Part shown: positions 57,479-64,000 of the stretch, piece after piece
How positions within the stretch are numbered: position 1 is the stretch's first letter
How the letters are laid out: each line of letters begins with the position of its first letter
Assembly (NCBI RefSeq): GCF_009856865.1
Contig: NZ_WVUD01000003.1
Coordinates: forward strand, 124,001-188,000
Source of the DNA: Solidesulfovibrio aerotolerans
GTDB lineage: Bacteria > Desulfobacterota > Desulfovibrionia > Desulfovibrionales > Desulfovibrionaceae
DNA length: 64,000 nucleotides
Direction: 5' to 3'
Notes under the pieces: generated by a model
What the model was told of the DNA's origin: nothing
What the model saw: only the letters and a program-made list of their open reading frames with translations
Database searches by the model: none
Position numbers and translations under genes: made by a program

Positions 57479-57782
57479 CCGGCCACGCCGACGCGGTCCG
57501 ACCGGGGCGCATCCTGTACGCGGGCGGCAAGGGGGCCGCGCCACCGAACGGGTCCGGCCGGGGCGGGGAGACACCCGGCCTCCAGCCCCCCCGGCTCCCT
57601 GACGGTTTGAGCGGTTTGCCGCCTTGCCCCACGGTCGGTCCCGTCCCCGGGGTCCATTTGCGTTGCCCCGCTGCCCCCGAAGCGCGGACGAACAGGGACC
57701 GTTTGGCCGCTTCCCCGGGGATCGCCTGCCTGTCCGGGCCGCCCCGCCGCCACAACCCCAAAAGGTTAAAAAAAGAAGTACC
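57479..57782. other. GC-rich 304-bp gap between corC and lnt
   Basis: Very GC-rich with many short inverted C/G runs. I see no gene, terminator or RNA. The two flanking genes lie on the same strand. Confidence 0.4.
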
Positions 57783-59309
57783 GTGACCATAGCTGCCCTA
57801 CTGGCCATTGCCGGAGCCTGGCTCGGTTTGGCCAATCCCCTCTCCCGTCTGCCTGTGCTGGTGCTGCTGCTGCCGGCCGGTCTGGCCTACGTCGCCGCCC
57901 GGGCTCCCTCGACCCGGGCCGCCATCAAGGCCGGCTATTGGATCGGTGCCCTGTCTGCCGCGGCCAGCCTGTACTGGGCCTGCCTGCCCATCCACGATTT
58001 CGGCGGCGTGCCCTGGCTGCTCGCCCTGCCCGTGCCCGTGCTCATGGGGCTTGTCCTTGGCCTGTACACGGCCGCCCTGACCGTGGCCCTGCGGTTTGGG
58101 ATTAAGCGCCTGCCGGCGTTGCTGTGTCTGCCCTACTGCGCCTGCGCCTGGACGGTCATGGAACTGCTGCGCGGCGTGTTGTTTACCGGCTTTCCCTGGC
58201 TCACCCTGGCGGCCGCCTTTTCGCCGTGGCCGGTGCTGGTTCAGGGCGCAGCCTTTCTCGGTGCCTACGGCCTGTCCGGTTTGCTGGCCGCCCTGGCCGC
58301 CGCCCCGGCCATCTACGGTCCCCTTTCCCGCCCGACCCTGGCCGCCGCCGTCCTGGCCCTGGGCCTCATTTTTCTCGGCAACCGCCGGCTGGCCGAACCG
58401 CTGCCCAAGGACGCAACGGCCCATGTGACCATCATCCAGGGCAACGTGGACCAGAGCCGCAAATGGGATCCCCAGGCCGAAGCGGAAATTGTCGAGAAGT
58501 ATCTGGCCCTGTCCCGCCAGGCCGTGGCCGACGCCCCCACGGATCTGATCGTGTGGCCCGAGACCTCCATGCCTTTTTTCTACCAGGACGGGGATGCGCC
58601 CGCCCAGCGCATCCGGGACTTCACGGCCGGTGCCGGCGTGCCGCTGCTTTTTGGCGCGCCAGCCTACCTGCGCTCGCTCGGCGGCCATGTCCTTTTTAAC
58701 CGGGCCTACCTCCTCGCCCCCTCCGGCCAGACCGCAGCCTACGACAAGGAGCATCTCGTCCCGTTCGGGGAATACGTGCCGCTCGGCAACCTTCTAACGT
58801 TTATCGGCAAGCTCGTTGAAGGCCTGGGCGATTTTCGGCCCGGCCAGGACGGCAAACCCCTGCTGCAAGGCAACCTTGCCCTGGGGACGCTCATTTGTTA
58901 TGAGGCAATCTTTCCGGAACTCGCCCAAAGGCGGGTTGCGGCCGGGGCCAACGTCCTGGTCAACATTTCCAACGACGCCTGGTTCGGCGATTCGGCTGCC
59001 CCGCGCCAGCATCTCGATCTGGCGCTGCTGCGGGCCGTGGAACAGGGGCGAACGCTTATCCGAGGCACCAATACGGGCATTTCCGCCGTGATCGATCCTC
59101 GGGGGCGCATCATGGCCCAGGGTGGCTTGTTTACCGCCCTGGCCCTGCCCTGCCCGGAGACCCCCCTCGTGTCGGAAACGACCTGGTACCACCGGCACTA
59201 TCTTTTCATCACCTGGGGCATCCCCGGCCTTTTCGCGGTGCTCGGCCTGACCGCCCTGCTGCTGCCCGCCCGCCGGGCGCAGATGCGTCCCCGGGATCTA
59301 ACCCTTTAA
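57783..59309 (+). CDS. lnt: Apolipoprotein N-acyltransferase Lnt
   Basis: A 508-residue inner-membrane enzyme that adds the third acyl chain to lipoproteins. About six N-terminal membrane helices, then a nitrilase-like domain with catalytic Glu (VWPETSMPFF), Lys (YDKEHLVPFGEYVP) and Cys (ICYEAIFPE), and a final C-terminal helix. The GTG at 57783 is taken by frame and length, but its ribosome site is weak. The corC-lnt order is the same as in enterobacteria. prfB starts 18 bp later. Confidence 0.93.
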   Translation: MTIAALLAIAGAWLGLANPLSRLPVLVLLLPAGLAYVAARAPSTRAAIKAGYWIGALSAAASLYWACLPIHDFGGVPWLLALPVPVLMGLVLGLYTAALTVALRFGIKRLPALLCLPYCACAWTVMELLRGVLFTGFPWLTLAAAFSPWPVLVQGAAFLGAYGLSGLLAALAAAPAIYGPLSRPTLAAAVLALGLIFLGNRRLAEPLPKDATAHVTIIQGNVDQSRKWDPQAEAEIVEKYLALSRQAVADAPTDLIVWPETSMPFFYQDGDAPAQRIRDFTAGAGVPLLFGAPAYLRSLGGHVLFNRAYLLAPSGQTAAYDKEHLVPFGEYVPLGNLLTFIGKLVEGLGDFRPGQDGKPLLQGNLALGTLICYEAIFPELAQRRVAAGANVLVNISNDAWFGDSAAPRQHLDLALLRAVEQGRTLIRGTNTGISAVIDPRGRIMAQGGLFTALALPCPETPLVSETTWYHRHYLFITWGIPGLFAVLGLTALLLPARRAQMRPRDLTL

Positions 59310-59327: not shown

Positions 59328-60438
59328 ATGTTGCAATATTCGGAGCTGCGCACCCAGAGTACCGAACTCTTGGACAAATTTGAGGAACTCTGGAGGCGTC
59401 TTTGACCTGGCCAAAAGCCGCGAGCGCCTAAGCGTTATCGAATTGGAACTGTCCCAACCCGGTGCCTGGGAAAACCCCGAACGCATGACCCCGATCTTGC
59501 GGGAGAAAAGCGTCCTGACGGCCAAGGTGAGCGATGCCGAGCGGTTGCTGGCCGCCCGGGCCGATCTCGACGAATGGCTCGGCATGGCCAAGGACGACGG
59601 CAGCCCCGAAGTGCTCGACGCCCTGGCCGAACAGATCGAGGCCTTGCGGCTTGAACTGGCCGATGCCGAACTGGCCGCCTTTTTCGGTCCCGAGGACAAC
59701 GCCGACGCCATCATGGAAATCCATCCGGGAGCCGGCGGCACCGAGGCCCAGGATTGGGCTGAAATGCTGTTGCGCATGTACCGCCGCTGGTCCGAACGCA
59801 AGCAGTTTACCGTCACGCTGCTCGATTTCCTGCCCGGCGATGAAGCAGGGGTGAAAAGCGTCACCTTGCAGATTTCCGGTCCCTATGCCTACGGTCTGCT
59901 GGCCTCTGAAAAAGGCATCCACCGCCTGATCCGGATTTCACCGTTTGATTCCTCGGGGCGGCGACATACTTCCTTTGCCTCTGTAGACGTCTACCCCGAT
60001 GCTGGCGTAGATATCGACATAGAGATCAAAGAGGATGATCTGCGCGTGGATGTCTTCCGGGCTTCCGGCCCGGGCGGCCAGCACGTCAACAAGACCTCCT
60101 CGGCCATCCGTATCACCCACCTGCCCACCAACATCGTGGTGCAGTGCCAGAACGAGAAGTCGCAGCACCGCAACCGCGAATCGGCCATGAAGGTGTTAAA
60201 GGCCCGGCTCTACGATCTGGAACTGAAAAAGATCCAGGCCGAAAAGCAGGAAAATTACGATTCCAAAAACGCCATCGGCTTTGGTTCCCAGATAAGGACC
60301 TACACCATGCAGCCTTACAGATTGGTCAAGGATCATCGTACCGGCGTCGATGCCGGCGATGTTGACGCGGTGATGGACGGCGAATTGGACAAGTTCATCC
60401 GTGGCTTTTTGCTCAGCGCCGGCAATGAAACCCGCTAA
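59328..60438 (+). CDS. prfB: Peptide chain release factor 2 (programmed +1 frameshift)
   Basis: RF2 reads UGA and UAA stop codons. Frame 0 runs from ATG 59328 for 25 codons to an in-frame TGA at 59403-59405; translation then shifts +1 at CTT-TGA-C and continues to 60438, giving about 369 residues. GGAGG (59392-59396) just before the shift site is the usual stimulator. The GGQ motif is in SGPGGQHVNK and the recognition tripeptide SPF is in RISPFDSSG. Autoregulatory shifting is known for RF2. Its end overlaps the next gene by 14 bp. Confidence 0.96.
59392..59406 (+). promoter_or_regulatory. prfB programmed frameshift site
   Basis: The SD-like GGAGG is followed by CGT, then slippery CTT TGA C. 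Without the shift only a 25-residue peptide is made. This is the standard RF2 autoregulation signal. Confidence 0.95.
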
Positions 60439-61324
60439 CGACCCCGACGCCCCGGCCGTCGGCAAAGCCAACGGTTGTGTGCCGGATTTTCCGGACGAGG
60501 CTCTTTTGGCCGAGCTTGAGGCCCTGCGCCAGATGCTGGCACCGGTGGAGAAACCGGCCTGCGCCACCGAAGGCGACGGCCTGATCATCATGCGCCTGTG
60601 CTCGGGCCTGACCTTGCCGGAGTGGGAGTGCCTGCGCAACCGGCGGGATCTGCGCGACTGGCTGGCCCTGCCCCTGTCGGCCAATCCCTTCCCTTATCTG
60701 ACCCGCATCCAGCAGACGCTTGAGGAGCTGGTCTTTCTCTCCGAGCACGATCCCCTGACCAAGCTGTACAACCGGGGGGCTTTCGAGCGCATTCTCGGTG
60801 CCGAACTTATCCGGTCGGCCCGTTCCGGCCAATCCCTGGCCCTGGTGCTGCTGGACCTTGACGACTTCAAGCTGGTCAACGACACGTATGGCCATCCCTG
60901 CGGCGACCGGGTGCTGGAAACCATCGGGGCGCTTTTGGCCGCTGAAAAGCGCACCTACGACTACGCGGCGCGCATCGGCGGTGAAGAATTCGCCCTGATC
61001 CTGCCCGGCGTCGGCCTTATGCGGGCCGAAGGGGTTATTGAACGCCTCATCGAGTCGGCCCGGTCGTTGCGCATTGTCTGCGACGGCGTGGATACGCCCC
61101 TGCGCGTGACCATTTCAGCCGGTCTGGCCTGCACCAAGGGCAAATACCCCATCTCCCTGGAAAAGCTCTACGCCCTGGCCGACGGGGCCCTTTACACCGC
61201 CAAGGCCCAAGGCAAGGACCGACTCTTTTCCGCCCCCATCGCCGACCTCACGGCACCACCGGAAAACACCCTGGTGCGGGCCGACGAAAAACGCTTCCTG
61301 TTCACCGGTTCAACCAAAGGATGA
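60425..61324 (+). CDS. Diguanylate cyclase (GGDEF)
   Basis: A 299-residue protein. The N-terminal 120 residues are helical and unrecognised. The GGDEF domain starts near 118 (HDPLTKLYNRGAFERIL), with active site GGEEF in RIGGEEFALI and an intact inhibitory RxxD (RTYD) five residues upstream, so it should make c-di-GMP under product feedback. No membrane helix, hence cytoplasmic. The ATG at 60425 lies within the prfB end (14-bp overlap). flhG-like gene follows directly. Confidence 0.9.
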   Translation: MKPANDPDAPAVGKANGCVPDFPDEALLAELEALRQMLAPVEKPACATEGDGLIIMRLCSGLTLPEWECLRNRRDLRDWLALPLSANPFPYLTRIQQTLEELVFLSEHDPLTKLYNRGAFERILGAELIRSARSGQSLALVLLDLDDFKLVNDTYGHPCGDRVLETIGALLAAEKRTYDYAARIGGEEFALILPGVGLMRAEGVIERLIESARSLRIVCDGVDTPLRVTISAGLACTKGKYPISLEKLYALADGALYTAKAQGKDRLFSAPIADLTAPPENTLVRADEKRFLFTGSTKG

Positions 61325-61325
61325 C

Positions 61326-62162
61326 ATGGCTATGTCCGAAGCCCAAAATCCCAACGCCACCCTGTCCGTGGCTATTTTAAGCGGCAAGGGTGGCGTGGGG
61401 AAAACCAATCTCGCCCTGAATTTAAGCTACGCGCTGTTTAGGGCCGGCCACCGCATCCTGCTCATGGATTTCGACGTGGGCCTGGCCAACGTCGATGTGC
61501 TCCTCGGTCTGTCGCCGGAAAAAAATCTCCAGGATCTCTTTCGGCCCGATGTGACTGCCGAGGAAGTGGTCCTGGCCGTGGAGCCGGGCGGCTTCGATTT
61601 CCTGCCCGCCGCCAGCGGTGTGCCGGAAATGCTGGAAATGGACGACGACATGCGCGAAGTCCTGTTCCATAAGCTCAACAAGGTCTTTGGCAGCTACGAC
61701 TATCTCATGCTCGACCTTGGGGCCGGCATTTCCCAGACCATCCTGTCCGTGGCCGCCATGAGCCAATTGCGCGTGCTGGTCGTCACCCCCGAGCCCACTT
61801 CGCTCACCGACTCCTACGCCGTAATAAAGGTGCTCCACACCCAGTACGGGATTACCGACTTCCATATCATCGTCAATCAGGTGGAAGGACCGGCCGACAC
61901 CCAGGCCACGTTTACCCGCCTGTCCACCGCCTGCAACCATTTCCTGGGCTTTGAGCCGATCCTGCTTGGCGGCGTGCGGTCCGATCCGGCCCTGCCGGCT
62001 GCGGTGCGACGCCAGATACCGCTGTTGCGCCACGCCCCGCGCAGCCCGGCCGCCCAGGACATCGTCAACGGGGCGGTCAAGCTCCACCGGGTCCGCCAAC
62101 AGCGCCAGCAAGCCCTGGTTGATGCGCCAGTGCTTGGAAAAATACCGATAATCCGCAAGTAA
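61326..62162 (+). CDS. FlhG/FleN-like MinD-family ATPase
   Basis: A 278-residue P-loop ATPase of the ParA/MinD family. The deviant Walker A is SGKGGVGKTNLALNLS; LLMDFDVGLANVDVLLGL and DLGAGISQTIL follow. This matches FlhG/FleN, which controls flagellar number and place; a MinD role is less likely. AAAGGA lies 4 nt before the ATG, right at the stop of the cyclase gene, so the two are one unit. Confidence 0.88.
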   Translation: MAMSEAQNPNATLSVAILSGKGGVGKTNLALNLSYALFRAGHRILLMDFDVGLANVDVLLGLSPEKNLQDLFRPDVTAEEVVLAVEPGGFDFLPAASGVPEMLEMDDDMREVLFHKLNKVFGSYDYLMLDLGAGISQTILSVAAMSQLRVLVVTPEPTSLTDSYAVIKVLHTQYGITDFHIIVNQVEGPADTQATFTRLSTACNHFLGFEPILLGGVRSDPALPAAVRRQIPLLRHAPRSPAAQDIVNGAVKLHRVRQQRQQALVDAPVLGKIPIIRK

Positions 62163-62272: not shown

Positions 62273-62548
62273 ATGAACAAAAGCGAACTCATCAAGACCC
62301 TGGCCGAAACCAAAGGCCTGCACATCGACGAAGCCGCCGACATCGTCAACGCCTTCGTCGATTCCGTCAAACAGGCGCTCATTAACGAAGACCGCGTGGA
62401 AATCCGTGGGTTTGGCAGCTTTAAAATCAAGGGCTACAAAGGCTATACCGGACGCAATCCCAAGTCCGGCGACGTCGTCACCGTGGCACCCAAAAAACTG
62501 CCGTTTTTCCGCCCGGGCAAAGAACTCAAGGAATACCTCAATAAATAA
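62273..62548 (+). CDS. HU-family DNA-binding protein
   Basis: A 91-residue histone-like HU/IHF protein. MNKSELIKTLAE, ALINEDRVEIRGFGSF and GRNPKSGDVVTV are family motifs. It bends DNA and organises the nucleoid. GAGG lies 8 nt before the ATG. The next gene begins only 4 bp after its stop, so translation of the two may be linked. Confidence 0.96.
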   Translation: MNKSELIKTLAETKGLHIDEAADIVNAFVDSVKQALINEDRVEIRGFGSFKIKGYKGYTGRNPKSGDVVTVAPKKLPFFRPGKELKEYLNK

Positions 62549-62552
62549 TCCT

Positions 62553-63422
62553 ATGGCAACTCTGCGCATTCTGTTTTTGGTCCTGGCCCTGGCGGCAGCG
62601 ACCGCAGCAACGGCTTTTGCCGCCGATCCGGCCCTGACCATCCTCTATGCCGGCAATACGTACGGCTATTACGATCCCTGCCCCACCTGCGGGCCGCAAA
62701 AACTGGGCGGTCTGGCCCGCCGGGCCACAGCCATCGCGATGCTGCGGCAAAACGCGCCCACTGCCGGCAAAGTGCTGGCCGTGGCCGGGCCGTGGGAGTT
62801 TCTCCCCGAAGTCTCGGCCGCGCCGCCCGAGCCAGACAAATTGCCGGTCGTGGCCAAGGCCCATGAACGCCTGGCCTACGACGCCATGGCCCTTGCCCCC
62901 CAGGAAGCCAGGCTTTTAGCCGAGCACAAGTCCCTGCCGCCCAAGGGCGCGGTGGTACTCGAAGACGCCCCGGTCACCCGCATCGTCATCGTTGGCGGCG
63001 TTGCCGTGGGGCTTTTGTACTTCCCCATGCCCAAAGACATCAGCGCCGTGGTGCCGGACAAGCTTATGGACGCCACAGCCAGGGCCGCAGCCGAACTGCG
63101 GGCCAAGGCCGCCCTGGTGGTCGGCATCAGCCCCTGGGGAGCACTCGACGAGGAAGCCTTTATCAACACCCGAACCGGGGCCGTGGATGTGCTGCTCGGC
63201 AGCGGCGGCGGATCCGGTTTTGCCTCCCGCACCTCCAAGGACGGCCGCACCTTGTGGACCCGGGCCTATATCAAGGGCAAGACGCTCAACCGCCTGGATT
63301 TGCTCGCGTTGCCCGGAAAGCCCGGCTTTGTCTGGAAAATCGGCGAGAACTTCACTGCCAAGGTCGATCCTTTGGATGAAAACTTTCCCCAGGATCAGGC
63401 CGTGGACGCGCTGCTCAAATAA
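62553..63422 (+). CDS. UshA-like secreted protein, Cys form
   Basis: A 289-residue exported protein with a signal peptide (ILFLVLALAAATAATAFA). The mature start LTILYAGNTYGYYDPCPTCG resembles the UshA/5'-nucleotidase N-terminus (LTILHTNDTHG), but the usual metal ligands D and H are N and Y here, so metal catalysis is doubtful. A CPTC motif lies at residues 43-46. The gene starts 4 bp after HU and lacks a ribosome site. A second, closely related copy follows at 63569. Confidence 0.75.
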   Translation: MATLRILFLVLALAAATAATAFAADPALTILYAGNTYGYYDPCPTCGPQKLGGLARRATAIAMLRQNAPTAGKVLAVAGPWEFLPEVSAAPPEPDKLPVVAKAHERLAYDAMALAPQEARLLAEHKSLPPKGAVVLEDAPVTRIVIVGGVAVGLLYFPMPKDISAVVPDKLMDATARAAAELRAKAALVVGISPWGALDEEAFINTRTGAVDVLLGSGGGSGFASRTSKDGRTLWTRAYIKGKTLNRLDLLALPGKPGFVWKIGENFTAKVDPLDENFPQDQAVDALLK

Positions 63423-63446: not shown

Positions 63447-63527
63447 GGTTGCCGCCCCGTCTCCCGGCTGGTGTCCTTGGCAGACAAGGGAACCGACAAG
63501 GAGGCGGGGCGGCAACCGATGGTTTTT
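63447..63527 (+). terminator. Branched hairpin terminator between the two UshA-like genes
   Basis: An 18-bp stem (63447-63464 with 63500-63517, one G-U wobble) encloses an inner 5-bp hairpin (63475-63479 with 63485-63489). A five-T run at 63523-63527 follows. The large enclosed loop is unusual for a simple terminator. Confidence 0.68.
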
Positions 63528-63568: not shown

Positions 63569-64000
63569 GTGAAGACTCGCTCCCATCGCGCCGCCCTCGC
63601 CCTATTGCCCCTGGTTCTGGCCGTAGTCGTCGCCCTGCCGGCGGCTGCCCAGGAACCGATCCTCACCATCGTCTTATCCGGCAACACCTACGGCAACTAC
63701 GAGCCCTGCCCTTCCTGAGGCGGCAAGCTTGTTGGCGGGTTGGCCCGGCGGGCCGCCTTTATCCAATCGCTTCGCGCCACTGCCCCTGGCAAGGCACGCA
63801 CGCTTGTTCTCGGCGCGCCCTTTGAAATTTTGCCTGACGGGCCGGACCGAAAGCCTGATCCCCATCGCCTGCCGGCCATAAGCCAGGCGCTTTCCCGCAT
63901 CGGCTACGATGCCGGGGCCTTGCTGCCGGATGAGGCCGCCTATCTCAAAAGCGCTGACGCGCCCATCCCGTCCGGCTTTGACGTCCTGGACAACAAGCCC
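63569..64000 (+). CDS. UshA-like secreted selenoprotein (in-frame UGA), C-terminus beyond window
   Basis: An exported paralogue of the gene at 62553. GTG 63569 starts a signal peptide (LALLPLVLAVVVALPAAAQ) and the mature part LTIVLSGNTYGNYEPCPS, where the in-frame TGA 63716-63718 (residue 50) aligns with Cys46 of the paralogue (CPTC). The frame stays open to the window end, and the following GGKLVGGLARRAAFI matches GPQKLGGLARRATAI. This indicates a CPSU motif with selenocysteine, not a nonsense mutation. A GC-rich hairpin follows the UGA. A real stop cannot be excluded without RNA or protein data. Confidence 0.78.
63716..63757 (+). promoter_or_regulatory. Possible bacterial SECIS element
   Basis: Right after the UGA, GGCCC (63742-63746) pairs with GGGCC (63750-63754) around a GGC loop beginning with G, about 24 nt after the UGA; GGCGGC at 63719-63724 could alternatively pair with 63752-63757. 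Size and place fit bSECIS rules; the structure is by eye only. Confidence 0.45.

Follow-up and report, generated by a model that had tools for sequence, protein, structure and literature searches.

A predicted UshA-like selenoprotein with a lost two-metal phosphatase site, and its cysteine-containing tandem paralogue, in Solidesulfovibrio aerotolerans

Introduction

UshA-like selenoproteins are not without precedent, as members of COG0737 are on record (PMC2398784) and the table of a 2026 review lists both NF049981, entered with a CxxU motif, one selenocysteine (Sec) and the source 'GenBank annotated', and NF041198, the UshA-like (seleno)protein, entered as CxU (PMC13188914). An earlier note on the DNA studied here, made from the sequence alone, had supposed that annotation resources list such proteins, and NCBIfam indeed has two such families, NF041198 (family 1) and NF049981 (family 2). 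Among open-licence papers, we found no study dedicated to the NF049981 family.

Here, we describe a gene of this kind in a 64,000-nucleotide stretch of contig NZ_WVUD01000003.1 of the sulfate reducer Solidesulfovibrio aerotolerans (the window), where a copy with an in-frame TGA (the Sec gene) follows a tandem paralogue with Cys in its place. Because the family has already been catalogued as a selenoprotein, the Sec gene is a real member of a recorded family, and not a new kind of selenoprotein.

Results

The UshA-like selenoprotein family 2 gene in its Sec form lies on the forward strand, begins with GTG at 63569 and runs through the window end at 64000 to a TAG at 64448-64450 in window numbering, a stop found in the contig sequence 450 bases beyond the window, for a total of 293 codons with a single in-frame TGA, the predicted Sec codon of a CPSU motif, at 63716-63718. 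The earlier note had placed this TGA amid homology to the intact gene at 62553, opposite a Cys of that paralogue and in a frame that stays open beyond it, and each of these observations held: the two proteins are 47% identical, CPS-UGA aligns with the second Cys of CPTC, and 94 open codons follow to the window end before the frame continues to the TAG. With its one TGA read through, the gene scores 273.6 bits against NF049981 (cut-off 140), and the full-length protein scores 282.3 bits, whereas the part within the window scores 118.2 bits alone; CPSU in the Sec gene and CPTC in the paralogue agree with the CxxU/CxxC motif of that family. Membership in NF041198 was rejected, as neither the Sec gene (39.4 bits) nor the Cys gene (42.1 bits) comes near its cut-off of 275.

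Across 115 family proteins, TGA falls in a single alignment column in all 92 TGA copies, and the remaining 23 all have TGC there, which bears out among homologues the UGA/Cys exchange that had been suspected from the window pair. The 115 proteins were chosen by hand from 186 matching genomes and are therefore a non-random, mutually related set, drawn from L011 (its duplicate L010 being excluded), 30 best-match loci, 40 hand-picked regions and 30 further loci; 19 further loci entered by their TGA/none label only, and five extra relatives were read, with the family protein found in L128 and L129 only. Three of the 92 Sec copies have another residue in place of the first Cys of CxxU but keep the UGA; these read LRAU, IKAU and EAGU (L076, L085 and L120, respectively).

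The family matches 186 of the 348 genomes of the order, 180 of them above cut-off. By hand-assigned labels, 170 have a TGA copy or fragment and 15, from five genera, have Cys only, with one weak match (G142) left out and one genome (G054) counted on the basis of a 25-residue fragment. A phylum sample of 395 genomes gave six above cut-off, including the source genome, all in one taxonomic family, and most of the weaker matches, among those listed, also carry one TGA.

The source assembly (4.6 Mb, 161 contigs) contains the machinery that a bacterial selenoprotein needs, in agreement with the search proposed in the earlier note: selA, selB (365.1 bits), tRNA-Sec (83.3 bits) and selD each score above the family cut-off, and selD itself has an in-frame TGA. 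Only matches above cut-off were counted, because each of the 14 control genomes also gives RF01852 and TIGR00475 matches at E 0.001, which are above cut-off in 5 and 2 of these genomes, respectively. Two formate dehydrogenases (FdhA) with one TGA each are also encoded. The selD gene (L137, G000:C95:202754-203677) lies some 14 kb downstream of the Sec gene, within one contig.

Within the order, selA is found above cut-off in 276 of 348 genomes and is absent from 12 of the 15 Cys-only genomes, as compared with 15 of the 170 TGA genomes (Fisher p 2.6e-9, a value that ignores kinship and assembly gaps, with matches below cut-off in G183, G215 and G049 scored as no selA). Twelve of the 15 TGA genomes without selA are less than 90% complete, and the other three (G329, G081 and G056) exceed 90%; the three Cys-only genomes with selA are G065-G067.

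These data bear on an alternative, that the UGA is a true stop, in which case the gene would be decaying or would yield a short product, and whatever follows would be untranslated or restarted at TTG 63740. Translation table 11 does end the frame at the UGA, and a TTG-started frame does run from 63740. However, the family match is full length through the TGA, the Cys-only genomes mostly lack selA, the same TGA column recurs in 92 proteins, and dN/dS 3' of the TGA was 0.14-0.31 in the six Sec pairs tried. On the conserved column and the low downstream dN/dS, we rejected a pseudogene or true stop, which we consider barely credible. Decoding as Sec is the preferred reading, and the RNA that follows the UGA is consistent with it.

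In the family, nucleotides 23-37 after the UGA can form a hairpin, UGGCCC-GGC-GGGCC(A/G), which is built by Ala-Arg-Arg-Ala codons. The window version, UGGCCC-GGC-GGGCCG with six pairs, lies at 63741-63755 on the forward strand and, judged by codon constraint and pairing counts, is likely the apical part of a SECIS element. In the Sec copies, these four codons are the most constrained of 36 well-conserved columns (z 15.9, 27.1, 19.5 and 7.9), whereas at these positions the constraint is much lower in Cys copies (z 2.4, -0.1, 1.2 and 0.9), in tests run on related sequences with kinship ignored. All six pairs are formed in 84 of 92 Sec copies and, once two Cys copies with other spacing are set aside from the 23, in 6 of the remaining 21; fewer than five are formed in six of the 92 Sec copies. 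The mean number of pairs is 5.8 in Sec copies against 4.6 expected for the same protein at the gene's own codon usage, and 4.7 against 4.3 in Cys copies. Mean fold z in mononucleotide shuffles is -1.37 for the 92 Sec copies versus -0.16 for the 23 Cys copies, the Cys column here being set by a simple motif match that is wrong for L111. The Cys copy of the window still forms all six pairs, perhaps as a relic.

Tests of the pairing itself gave mixed results. Seven named pairs are paired in 88.6% of cells, against 31.8-48.5% in slid versions; both sides have changed at three of the seven, but 35 of 500 shuffles do as well as this, and in 46 of 84 sequences the named pair 25-41 does not form. The RNAalifold consensus on the 84 sequences had two pairs at -0.13 kcal/mol and did not recover the hairpin, and the lowest-energy fold of 48 nt from the window Sec gene is a longer stem, not the hairpin alone. 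A DNA pattern of CxxU plus hairpin occurs in 65 stretches among 84,980 species genomes, all of them in family 2 or in family-1 relatives; all 65 match the profile built here, and comparison with NCBIfam covered L188, L193 and L210. For these three loci, NF041198 gives a higher score than NF049981, but they have both CPTU and the hairpin pattern that follows it in common with family 2, a hint that the two UshA-like selenoprotein families have a single origin. The case for the hairpin as a SECIS element is good but not final. The central claim of the earlier note, that the UGA is read as Sec, is very well supported as a prediction by the machinery, the UGA/Cys alternation and the codon-level constraint after the UGA, while its picture of a secreted protein of redox type stays at the level of inference.

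The Cys form (CPTC) occupies 62553-63422 on the forward strand, exceeds the NF049981 cut-off of 140 with 283.9 bits, and has TGC at the Sec column of the alignment (62688-62690). An inverted repeat at 63447-63517, on the same strand, separates it from the Sec gene, with 33-nt arms that are 79% complementary, a 5-nt spacer and TTTTT shortly downstream; nothing like it was seen by eye in 13 other Solidesulfovibrio intergenic gaps. Thirteen of the 14 Solidesulfovibrio genomes searched have a family match, and 14 Sec/Cys pairs were counted among them, with G324 contributing two. In a quick tree, the 14 Cys copies form the sister group of the genus's 14 Sec copies, and six changes between Sec and Cys are needed, five of them forced by starred branches. 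As the tree was rooted at its midpoint, the direction is taken from the Cys groups being nested among Sec groups, and Sec would then, most simply, have changed to Cys several times in the family. The simplest reading of the window pair is an old duplication at the base of Solidesulfovibrio, of which one copy would have turned to Cys.

An AlphaFold2 model of the Cys paralogue, made with 59 relatives, has a pLDDT of 93.3 and aligns with the 5'-nucleotidase 3ive (Z 25.1, rmsd 2.8, 244 aligned) and with SoxB 2wdc (Z 24.2, rmsd 2.9, 242 aligned), placing the modelled paralogue in the fold of 5'-nucleotidase-type metallophosphatases and SoxB. In sequence, the match to 5'-nucleotidases is distant (best E 4.5e-5). 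The two-metal ligand set, which we take to comprise the motifs DxH, GD, GNH, H and GHxH, is almost entirely lacking: with columns placed by motif, guided by weak HMMER alignments and in one case via L188, none of the seven ligands is kept in 99 of the 115 proteins, one in 11 and two in 5, and all 115 have Gly in the column presumed to match the first GHxH His. We rejected an active metallophosphatase on the basis of this loss. That the protein with its Sec still works as a hydrolase of the 5'-nucleotidase type and depends on metal, Sec playing a secondary part, is suggested by the shared fold and the distant sequence match, but the missing ligands and the invariant Gly make it highly unlikely.

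The column of the Sec/Cys residue, on the other hand, is Sec or Cys in 115 of 115 proteins. Given this invariance and the lost ligands, we think that the protein has probably ceased to be a phosphatase and has Sec as its functional centre. In the alignment, the CxxU loop directly follows the former DxH motif. NDTH is still found in L188 and L193, and DAGD in L128, which comes from outside the order; these three are possibly surviving intermediates that combine Sec with part of the ligands.

A further alternative is that the UGA encodes Sec and the CxxU loop is a binding site for a metal or metalloid instead of serving redox catalysis. Cys/Sec pairs can bind soft metals, as is generally known, and the loop follows a former metal motif; the first Cys is absent from three Sec copies, however, and we regard this alternative as unlikely. 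A redox role for the loop is our preferred reading, although in those same three copies a CxxU mechanism cannot apply.

Upstream of the pair, all on the forward strand, are lnt (apolipoprotein N-acyltransferase, 57624-59309, putative start), prfB (release factor 2, 59328-60438, with the TIGR00020 match in frame 59380-60438), a GGDEF diguanylate cyclase gene (60401-61324), a MinD/ParA-like ATPase gene (61326-62162) and a gene for an HU/IHF-like DNA-binding protein (62273-62548), with 4 nt between its end and the Cys paralogue; in the window, it is thus the Cys copy that adjoins the HU gene. Among the pattern-search loci with enough upstream sequence, the same neighbours recur (prfB 34/38, HU 44/58, MinD 40/51, GGDEF 35/44 and lnt 22/25), and by gene order the Sec gene family is the last member of a conserved, old operon, lnt-prfB-GGDEF-MinD-HU. 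Within prfB, the frame opened by ATG 59328 contains CTTTGAC at 59400-59406, after which the gene continues in the +1 frame. We take CTTTGAC to be a frameshift-type site like that of the known RF2 autoregulation, so that one conserved operon would hold two recoded UGA codons, one in a release factor gene and one in the Sec gene. A function could not be drawn from the neighbours, as lnt, prfB, GGDEF, MinD and HU share no theme.

Discussion

Taken together, we put the probability of the main reading, the predicted insertion of Sec into a protein whose metal site is dead, at roughly nine in ten. SelB and tRNA-Sec would decode the UGA at 63716 as Sec at the hairpin some 23-37 nucleotides downstream, and the product, whose N terminus looks by eye like a signal peptide, would be exported. 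It would fold as the N-terminal domain of a 5'-nucleotidase from which the two-metal phosphatase site is gone, with the conserved CxxU loop after the former DxH as its likely functional site.

What such a protein does in the periplasm is less certain. Our best guess, at about even odds, is a selenol/thiol redox protein for disulfide, peroxide or sulfur-compound chemistry, in which both activity and substrate are inferred. It is tempting to speculate further, with somewhat less than an even chance, that the ancestor was an exported domain resembling a 5'-nucleotidase, from which the two-metal centre was lost and which gained a Sec loop next to it, and so became a selenol redox enzyme on a phosphatase scaffold.

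With this analysis, a catalogued family gains several independent lines of evidence, along with new detail on its fold, the loss of its metal ligands, the recurrent switching between Sec and Cys, the conserved operon and the apparent old duplication in Solidesulfovibrio. Fold and ligand loss mark the old phosphatase site as dead. Function also becomes testable, as Sec and Cys versions adjoin in Solidesulfovibrio and some lineages have Cys only, without selA.

The closest described systems differ in how much of this they share. NF041198 (family 1) has a related N-terminal stretch around Sec, but its model spans 519 positions, of which the best matching stretch of the window proteins covers about 60 residues. 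UshA/CD73-type 5'-nucleotidases and the N-terminal domain of SoxB share the fold, with Z 22-25 across some 245 residues; in contrast to them, the metal-ligand columns are lost here, a length of 289 residues leaves no room for the C-terminal domain, and the CxxU/CxxC loop is present. The nearest likeness is with NF049981 (family 2), for which both window genes exceed the cut-off and whose CxxU motif they share; no feature was found that sets the Sec gene apart from this family, in which the tandem Sec/Cys pair is seen in Solidesulfovibrio.
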